A DNA stretch of 64,000 nucleotides, from NCBI RefSeq assembly GCF_017311415.1, contig NZ_JAEKIS010000006.1, positions 186,001 through 250,000 of the forward strand, in the 5' to 3' direction. Within the stretch, counting starts at the first letter, position 1, and every line of letters starts with the position of its first letter. Source of the stretch: Salipiger abyssi. Lineage in GTDB: Bacteria > Pseudomonadota > Alphaproteobacteria > Rhodobacterales > Rhodobacteraceae. Of this stretch, positions 8,779 to 51,885 are shown piece after piece. Under the pieces are notes generated by a model. The model saw only the letters and a list, made by a program, of their open reading frames with translations. It was not told the origin of the DNA and made no database searches. Made by a program: the position numbers and the translations under genes.

Positions 8779-10527
<1,749 letters not shown>

Positions 10528-17970: not shown

Positions 17971-18048
17971 TCGCGCCCCGGCCTCCGCGCCGGGGCCTCC
18001 ACGCTGCAATGGCGGCATGAGGCCCCGGACCTGGTCCGGGGCGCGATC
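17971..18048. repeat. palindromic doublet (REP-like family 1) between ugpB and ugpA
   Basis: Two hairpins flank a short spacer. The left arm is at 17976-17995; the right is the perfect palindrome CCCCGGACCTGGTCCGGGG at 18023-18041. The outer TCGCGCCCCGG and CCGGGGCGCGA also pair. The same doublet layout, including the spacer words CCTCCAC and GGCATGAGG, recurs at 46808-46890. As with the REP sequence after malE, it could protect or attenuate the mRNA after the binding-protein gene. Confidence 0.7.
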
Positions 18049-22919: not shown

Positions 22920-23332
22920 GCGCGTGGAGGGCCGGGCGGCCGCTGCCGGCGGAGCGATCCGCCGGGGGAGGAAAGTCCGGACTCGCCGAAGCGCCGGTGC
23001 CGGGTAACGCCCGGGCAGGGCAACCTGACGGAGAGCGCCACAGAAAACAGACCGCCCCGGACCTGGTCCGGGGTCAGGGTGAAACGGTGGGGTAAGAGCC
23101 CACCGGGGGGCTGGCAACAGCGCCCGCATGGCAAGCCCCACCGGGAGCAATGCCAAATAGGGACCTCGCGCGGGCATGATCCTTTCGGGGATATCGCCGC
23201 AGGGCGGCTTCGGCCCGAGAGGTCCGGGTTGGCAGCACGAGCCCCCGGGCGACCGGGGGCCTAGAGGAATGGTCGCCGATGGACGGGGCAACCCGTCCGG
23301 AACAGAATCCGGCTTACAGGCCCTCCACGCAT
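22920..23332 (+). ncRNA. rnpB: RNase P RNA, bacterial class A
   Basis: The catalytic RNA of RNase P, which removes 5' leaders from pre-tRNA. GCGTGGAGGGCC at 22922-22933 pairs with GGCCCTCCACGC at the 3' end (23319-23330) as P1. The conserved core is present: GAGGAAAGTCCGGACTC near 22968, the GTGAAACGGTGGGGTAAGAGCCCACC element near 23080, and GAACAGAATCCGGCTTACAGG near 23300. The hairpin in the P12 position (23055-23073) is identical to a dispersed intergenic palindrome. Confidence 0.95.
23055..23073. repeat. family 1 palindrome inside rnpB
   Basis: CCCCGGACCTGGTCCGGGG, a perfect 9+1+9 inverted repeat, identical to 18023-18041 and one base different from 46811-46829. It lies between ACAGAAAACAGACCG and TCAGGGTGAAACGG, the place of the variable P12 hairpin of RNase P RNA. 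Confidence 0.75.
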
Positions 23333-25996: not shown

Positions 25997-26242
25997 GGGG
26001 CGGGCGGTGGGCAGGCTGCCCGCCCTACGGTGAGCCGCGCCATTGCCGGCCCGTGGGGTGGCGAACTGACCGACGAAGCTCTCGATTTATCCCTGCCAAA
26101 TCCGAAAGATCTCGACACGCAGCGCTGGCGTCACCAAATCGCCAGCCCGCCCGGACGGGCCGGCGATGGCGCGGCGGCTTCGCCTTGTCCCGCGCCCGGG
26201 CTGTTCAACCGTAGGGCGGGCAATCTGCCCACCGCCCGCCCC
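25997..26242. repeat. 246-bp inverted-repeat element
   Basis: The ends are an 18-bp perfect inverted repeat (25997-26014 with 26225-26242), each overlapping a 23-bp family 2 palindrome (26006-26028 and 26211-26233). Inner arms 26034-26053 and 26156-26175 match at 19 of 20 positions when inverted. The right arm has about 30 extra bases. The central 100 nt has no gene. It resembles a small non-autonomous (MITE/REP-pair) element; it fills most of the 25980-26312 gap. Confidence 0.65.
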
Positions 26243-37633: not shown

Positions 37634-37671
37634 GGTGTATCTCCCGGGGTTTGCATCGGTTCCGGACGCGC

Positions 37672-37759
37672 GCACAGCACCGTTCGCGCAAGGGGCCCGC
37701 GCATCCGCCCCGAGTATCCCGCCTGCGCTGTGCGGGGTGTATTGCACCATGGTCTAGGG
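37672..37759. repeat. 88-bp direct repeat, copy A (cytochrome c upstream region)
   Basis: This 88-bp stretch covers the region upstream of the cytochrome c gene (start at 37633). It recurs in the same orientation at 38666-38753 with 7 mismatches and no gaps. It ends in CACCATGGTCTAGGG. Confidence 0.85.
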
Positions 37760-38604: not shown

Positions 38605-39228
38605 ACGACGGGATAATCTGCCGCAGAGTGCCGGAGACCCGCGCCGACAAACGCCAGAGGCACGGGCACAGCACAGTTGGCGCAAGGGGCCCGCGCGTCC
38701 GCGCCGAGTATCCCGCCTGCGCGGGGCGGGCTGTATTGCACCATGGTCTAGGGATTAGGACGACAGTGCTGTTGATGAGCAGCACATTTATCCTTTGGGG
38801 TCACAAACTGCCTTTTCGACCCGCTGCATGAAAATCTGAAGGGCGGCTATGAGCCCGAAGTTACCTATGCTGCGCATTGCTCGAATGTCTGCGTTTCAGG
38901 ATGCGGCCAAAAACGTGACAAAATCATAGATGGTTTTGCCGAGGGTTTGTGGCACAAGGTTTTCCAATGATCTCGGTGAACCCACGGTTCGTGACAAAAA
39001 CGACCGTTTTTGGCCGAGGTGTTTTGGCAGGGGGTATTTGTCCCATGTGCGTGCAGTGCTGACGTACGCGCGAAGTCCGCTCTTGGAGTGCGAACTTTTG
39101 AACGAGATTGTCAAACGGGTTCATTCTTTCGGATCGTTAACAGGGCTTTGGTGCTGGGAACTCTTGCTTTCCCTGTGCTTTTGGCAAAGCATTCACACCA
39201 TAACAAACTGGAAGAACGGTATTTCATC
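38605..39228. other. gene-poor stretch with the second direct repeat
   Basis: The 624 nt hold copy B of the 88-bp repeat and, from about 38760, lower-GC sequence with no convincing gene. AAAAACGACCGTTTTT (38996-39011) recurs at 39865-39880. The in-frame run 39010-39228 upstream of the next gene has Cys-rich, atypical composition and is not counted as coding. Confidence 0.5.
38666..38753. repeat. 88-bp direct repeat, copy B
   Basis: Matches 37672-37759 at 81 of 88 positions, same orientation, no gaps. Nothing like the cytochrome gene is attached to it, so it looks like a duplicated fragment produced when the intervening 0.9 kb was inserted or copied. Confidence 0.85.
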
Positions 39229-46807: not shown

Positions 46808-46890
46808 CCGCCCCGGACCTGATCCGGGGCCTCCACCTCACCGCCCCACGCTGCCTCGGGGCATGAGGCCCCGGGTCGAGCCCGGGGCGG
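46808..46890. repeat. palindromic doublet (family 1), second copy
   Basis: CCCCGGACCTGATCCGGGG (46811-46829) and CCCCGGGTCGAGCCCGGGG (46869-46887) flank a spacer sharing CCTCCAC and GGCATGAGG with the ugpB-ugpA copy. Outer CCCGCCCC and GGGGCGGG also pair. It lies between convergent xoxJ-like and apbE genes and could end both transcripts. Confidence 0.75.
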
Positions 46891-46902
46891 GTAGCGCCCC
46901 CC

Positions 46903-46925
46903 GTGGGGTGGGCAATCCGCCCACC
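46903..46925 (+). repeat. 23-bp family 2 palindrome
   Basis: GGGGTGGGCAATCCGCCCACC core, one of five copies of the 23-bp family (others at 26006-26028, 26211-26233, 51798-51820, 51863-51885). Here it lies beside a family 1 doublet. Confidence 0.7.
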
Positions 46926-46932
46926 GCCCGCG

Positions 46933-51797: not shown

Positions 51798-51885
51798 GGT
51801 GGGCATATTGCCCACCCTACAAGTGACATGTCAGCGCGAGCCACGCCGGGTATTTTTCCCATGTAGGGTGGGCAATATGCCCACC
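51798..51885. repeat. inverted pair of 23-bp family 2 palindromes
   Basis: Copies 51798-51820 and 51863-51885 are exact reverse complements, separated by 42 nt. Core TGGGCAATATGCCCA. They lie between the ALDH promoter region and the monooxygenase operon's last gene. Confidence 0.8.

Follow-up and report, generated by a model that had tools for sequence, protein, structure and literature searches.

Repeats within rnpB, the gene for the RNase P RNA, are already known. Vioque reportedly described STRR sequences in cyanobacterial rnpB in 1997; we take these to be tandem heptamers placed in helix P12. Another class of repeats, the REPs, carry a conserved tetranucleotide at one flank, occur as inverted doublets and go with a RAYT (Y1) transposase in the same genome. 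In Rickettsia, palindromic elements are fused in the genes for tmRNA and M1 RNA (Ogata et al. 2002, as related in the available part of the review PMC2229807). The base of P12 is relatively conserved, the helix has no universally conserved nucleotides and in some cases, cyanobacteria among them, it can be dispensed with (PMC2858038, in part), while the presence of P12 ranks among the most conserved features of the RNA (PMC8172020, in part). The portions of PMC2996960, PMC7191817 and PMC8172020 that were accessible make no mention of repeats in P12. In the open-licence literature we found no report of a REP serving as P12 (titles and the beginnings of abstracts), none of a REP-associated tyrosine transposase together with RNase P, and no published 13-mers of the core or 15-mers of the second repeat described below, with the proviso that sequences broken by spaces would escape such a search. 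Nor did we find there any account of short REP palindromes being reused as P12 in several lineages.

The stretch of DNA analysed here (the window) is 64,000 nucleotides from Salipiger abyssi, genome G000. The rnpB gene, coding for a class A RNase P RNA, lies at 22924–23332 on the plus strand and matches RF00010 over the full covariance model (268.3 bits, E 2e-86, model positions 1–367 of 367). Helix P12 is found at 23052–23078 (plus strand), and most of it is the 19-mer palindrome CCCCGGACCTGGTCCGGGG at 23055–23073, on the same strand. The base is made by 23052–23053 pairing with 23077–23078, next to a 2-nt bulge at 23075–23076, and a stem of nine pairs (23054–23062 with 23066–23074) carries the loop CTG. 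In the RF00010 alignment P12 is at its expected place with zero non-standard pairs marked, and the same hairpin is formed when the whole of rnpB is folded freely and when P12 is folded alone. The sequence-only reading had taken the 19-mer for the P12 hairpin and had proposed a fold of the RNA as a check; the 19-mer does fall on P12 of the model, and the predicted free fold makes the P12 hairpin out of it.

The palindrome had also been read as a dispersed REP-like element, and this is borne out. An identical 19-mer occurs at 18023–18041, preceded by GAGG at 18019–18022 (the whole copy being 18019–18041, plus strand), and a 19-mer with one mismatch occurs at 46811–46829, followed by CCTC, which is GAGG on the minus strand (46811–46833, minus strand). 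Both copies, the first of which had been called intergenic, lie between open reading frames that look plausible from their coordinates, although mechanical opposite-strand frames overlap both. Allowing up to three mismatches, the window has six matches to the 19-mer, since each of the three loci matches on both strands; 0.09 would be expected, and six was reached in 0 of 100 shuffles. In the G000 genome (5.2 Mb in 75 contigs) the same search gives 67 forward and 65 reverse places, with many loci counted twice, once per strand, and the pattern written backwards gives 1 and 1. Exact copies of the 19-mer number three, including rnpB, and the pattern CCCCGGANNTGNTCCGGGG, which matches any given locus on one strand only, is found at 50 loci, rnpB included; the palindrome is not rare outside rnpB.

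The flanks were read for 32 distinct copies from 28 fetched loci, a set limited to the best matches in G000. The core is followed by CCTC in 28 copies and by GCTC in one, and it is preceded by GAGG in two copies of opposite orientation; the sole copy without a tetranucleotide is that of rnpB, where inspection of the flanks shows rnpB's own GACCG and TCAGGG and not a complete REP unit. At the opposite end of the core the four bases found most often are CCCG, in 16 of the 32 copies. The unit of the family is thus GAGG plus a palindrome, commonly CCCCGGATCARGTCCGGGG, often followed by CGGG, and it resembles a REP. Many copies, though not all, form inverted doublets on opposite strands with starts about 40–80 bases apart, as at G000:C1:305393 and 305434. 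A many-copy palindrome, a tetranucleotide and inverted doublets are therefore all present in the dispersed family; of the RAYT transposase there is no sign in a PF01797 search of G000 and its sister G001 (zero matches), and 3 of 20 congeners have a match.

The tetranucleotide tail has consequences for the direction of transfer. That the P12 of rnpB seeded the dispersed repeats has in its favour only the core common to the two; against it, CCTC, GCTC or GAGG adjoins the core in 31 of the 32 copies and is missing in rnpB, and a repeat-rich genome may have an unrelated P12, as does G134 with its 121 copies. Because of the tail we reject an origin of the repeat from rnpB as hardly credible. In S. 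abyssi the direction would be from the repeat into rnpB.

Several other features of the window were seen along the way. A second dispersed inverted repeat, of the type GTGGGCA...TGCCCAC, is present at 25997–26031, 26208–26242, 46901–46931, 51798–51826 and 51857–51885, and for 5 of the 32 copies read for the first family a part of it, GCCCACCCTAC, lies no more than 30 bases upstream. Two 91-nt copies with 91% identity are found 994 bases apart, at 37669–37759 and 38663–38753. At 10048–10335 on the plus strand there is a match to the Rfam family 5' ureB sRNA (RF02514, 110 bits), which may be conserved coding sequence and not a small RNA.

Within the genus, rnpB was located in 20 of 20 congeners. 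The 19-mer serves as P12 in just two of them, G000 and G001. The other 18 of the 20 have different hairpins there, so the comparison with close relatives that had been suggested earlier does show a P12 that differs. The strict family CCCCGGAYYTGRTCCGGGG, counted once per locus and by exact matches only (near variants were counted in G000 alone), is present at 40 loci in G000, 34 in G001, 6 in G014 and 0 in the other 17 congeners. In a tree built from rnpB minus P12 together with a downstream rpmG-like stretch, G000 and G001 group together with support 100/98 and lie 0.002 changes per column apart. Since the two form one clade and are very close, the repeat-type P12 in the genus is most simply explained by one event. 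The repeat can also exist without a repeat-type P12, because G014 has six repeat loci yet a different P12. For these two genomes, we think it quite probable that P12 is the palindromic core of the resident REP-like family, a copy of which entered or overwrote the helix.

The main rival to capture in S. abyssi is convergence. P12 could have drifted to CCCCGGACCTGGTCCGGGG through a preference for GC-rich stems on a CC...GGY base with loops of the type C(NN)G, the REP being a hairpin of similar build. Convergence has on its side the congener G009, whose P12 is CTCCGGATGCGTCCGGAG and which has no copies of the strict family, and the absence of the tail from the rnpB copy.

The family Rhodobacteraceae allows the two readings to be compared on a larger sample, with one genome per genus, except for two from the genus of the window. 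Two patterns extracted P12s for 128 and at least 173 of 295 genomes, and the typed set consists of 165 P12s (130 short and 35 long) among the matches listed for these 295, of which 76 have at least one exact match to the repeat. Repeat-type P12s, as defined by CCCCGGANNTGNTCCGGGG, are those of G000, G068 and G287. These are 3 of the 18 typed genomes with at least three other copies versus 0 of the 147 others (Fisher p 0.0011, or 0.010 without G000), where the threshold of three was chosen post hoc and the test treats genera as independent, ignoring kinship. Other thresholds weaken the association, to p 0.011 for at least one copy (0.047 without G000) and 0.019 for at least five (0.15). The full core occurs in 0 of 128 typed genomes without exact copies versus 3 of the 18 with at least three others, which is against convergence.

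Part of the match between P12 and the repeat is nevertheless convergence. The base CC...GGY is found in 120 of the 130 typed short P12s and coincides with the outer CC...GG of the 19-mer. P12s that begin with CCCCGG are more frequent in genomes with at least three other copies (7 of 18, versus 15 of 147, p 0.0035), but 13 of the 128 typed P12s whose genomes have zero exact copies start in this way too. The loops CATG, CTTG, CGTG, CACG and CCTG are common among the 130 short P12s, and as P12 often has a loop of this C(NN)G form, a TG centre is less rare than 1 in 16. Leaving the centre free, CCCCGGA-N5-TCCGGGG is found in P12 in 5 of 394 genomes of the family, in a scan that counts only P12s followed by the motif NNAGGGTGAAA. 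The five centres are CCTGG in G000, CGTGA in G068, TCTGA in G287, GCTGA in G644 and CGCCG in G310, and the last of these genomes, with its different centre, has zero repeat copies. G644 appears to be Frigidibacter, as the place and letters of its P12 are those of G316 (locus L057), and Frigidibacter (G316/G644) has a repeat-type P12 with zero other exact copies. Both Frigidibacter and G310 are results against a simple repeat origin. The sequence-only reading had named relatives that have the same P12 and lack other copies as a finding that would tell against it; such a case, with a P12 of this kind, exists in the distant Frigidibacter, and inside the genus of the window there is none.

Some P12s in these samples are unusual in other ways. 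In G014 (rnpB locus L048) the helix holds about four near-tandem units around GGTGCGCCAA, which enlarge it and are reminiscent of the tandem repeats in cyanobacterial rnpB, and a related single unit is found in the P12 of G017 (L032) and of G268 from the family sample (GGTGCGCCGA). The P12s of G039, CCCCGGCCTGTCCGGGG, and G199, CCCCGGCCTGCCCGGGG, look like the repeat core minus one A-T pair, and these genomes carry the repeat (6 and 9 matches). In G009 there are three Y1 matches, and its P12 (CTCCGGA...TCCGGAG) was considered as the REP of its own transposase; this is unsupported, as the three fetched Y1 loci contain no stretch within four substitutions of that P12.

When GTDB contigs were scanned for P12s of the repeat type, six loci came up: two in Marinosulfonomonas and one each in Novosphingobium, a Sphingomonadaceae MAG, Frigidibacter and Henriciella. 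The P12 centres at L054 to L059 are, in that order, CCTGA, CTTGA, CTTGA, GCTGA, CCTGA and CATGA, and the exact repeat matches, including rnpB, number 4 in G313, 12 in G314, 23 in G315, 1 in G316, 2 in G317 and 15 in G318. Henriciella has a single other exact copy, and this, like the zero of Frigidibacter, counts for convergence. An unpaired C...A at the loop, which is typical of the repeat, is present in five of the six loci, and a hairpin chosen by pairing alone has no need of it. In the family of G315 (298 genomes), CCCCGGA-N5-TCCGGGG is found as P12 in two genomes only, both with the repeat's own centre CTTGA, and these two carry 11 and 22 further copies of the repeat; both were already among the matches of the GTDB scan before the 298 genomes were scanned. 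That both P12s have the exact common form of the repeat, unpaired C...A included, speaks against convergence. The tetranucleotide of the first family is absent beside the core in all the other repeat-type P12s that were found.

The genus of G315 is probably Novosphingobium, as its rnpB is nearly the same as that of the Novosphingobium genome G314. From this genus 59 genomes were drawn and P12 was obtained from 54. The P12 of G315 is the first repeat, and three of the 54, those of G744, G746 and G747, hold a different element, CTTCGACAAGCTYNGGNNNANCGG, which has 510 matches in 42 of the 59 genomes; the pattern backwards has 0 in 59. The rnpB copies of this second repeat end in GAGCGG or TAGCGG, and they occur in both orientations. 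The pattern itself requires a part of this tail, but a search of the fetched loci with the core only gave five further copies, of which four end in GAGCGG and one in GGACGG, so the tail is not merely made by the pattern. At genome-average density 0.0075 occurrences of the second repeat in P12 are expected by chance, and if all copies are assumed to sit in a tenth of the genome, 0.075, with probabilities of 7e-5 for three or more and 0.003 for two or more; the P12s in question were noticed post hoc, on reading the list of P12s before the tree was built. On a tree of rnpB without P12 (55 rows) the second repeat in P12 needs three changes over all rows. A single clade of G744, G746 and G747 is rejected (p 0.0008) and a clade of G744 and G747 is allowed (p 0.37), with a bootstrap that is incompletely settled. 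There are therefore at least two origins of the second-repeat P12, plus one for the first repeat. Two further genomes, G714 (L107) and G750 (L109), have a copy of the second repeat's core with its tail outside P12, in the short stretch taken around rnpB.

Repeat capture by P12 in the genus of G315 is well supported, and convergence leaves the second repeat and its tail unexplained. For S. abyssi the identity of the 19-mers, their dispersal, the limitation to two of 20 congeners and the predicted P12 fold are established; capture is likely and convergence, though the main rival, is in our judgement unlikely. The earlier proposal that a repeat replaced the natural P12 is accordingly upheld in part: the palindrome is a dispersed REP-like one, 18 of 20 congeners differ and capture is clear, with the tail, in the genus of G315. 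The proposed mobility, in the sense of an intact unit being inserted, is not borne out in S. abyssi, with rnpB alone of 32 copies lacking the tetranucleotide and PF01797 absent in both G000 and G001.

We suggest two routes by which a copy of a repeat may get into the P12 of rnpB: insertion, and template switching at the CC...GG ends that repeat and helix have in common. Insertion would be the route in the genus of G315, where the tail is retained, and template switching at the CC...GG ends that in S. abyssi, where it is absent. A palindrome on the conserved CC...GG base would make a plausible hairpin, and the energies predicted for five first-repeat P12s (-16.5 to -18.9 kcal/mol) and three second-repeat P12s (-18.6 to -23.9) can be set beside those of three sister P12s (-14.5 to -17.1). 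A captured repeat would be kept because P12 seems to need little beyond a stable hairpin on a conserved base, and the function of P12 would presumably be unchanged. It is also conceivable that selection keeps the repeat in P12 for a role of its own, such as binding by a REP-hairpin-binding protein or protection of the rnpB RNA. Recurrence in several lineages would fit this, but only a minority of repeat-rich genomes (3 of 18) have such a P12, and two genomes as close as G000 and G001 do not reveal selection; we regard a repeat-specific role as very unlikely. The evidence on balance favours the view that in Alphaproteobacteria P12 is a site where dispersed palindromes are captured again and again, by several lineages independently and from at least two unrelated repeat families.

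If this is true, REPs are a reservoir of ready-made RNA helices. They are usually viewed as intergenic, and here an essential ribozyme seems to have taken a helix from them on more than one occasion. The P12s amount to a series of natural swap experiments at a single site in a well-understood RNA, and with them one can test simply whether RNA helices at the periphery evolve by repeat capture or by point change. A caution is that counts of REPs and alignments of rnpB may contaminate each other.

Among the known systems, cyanobacterial rnpB is similar in having genomic repeats inside the gene, but these are tandem heptamers, whereas here a dispersed palindrome serves as a single hairpin. The short palindrome, the one-sided tetranucleotide and the inverted doublets are like those of REP/RAYT systems (survey PMC12306157, in the part accessible to us); unlike in those systems, a Y1 transposase was undetected in G000 and G001, and the rnpB copy is without the tetranucleotide. 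As with the Rickettsia elements, a dispersed palindrome is found within the RNase P ribozyme gene of an alphaproteobacterium, but the Rickettsia RPEs are 105–146 bp long (both points after the available part of PMC2229807), whereas in S. abyssi a core of 19 nt makes up all of P12 but its base.
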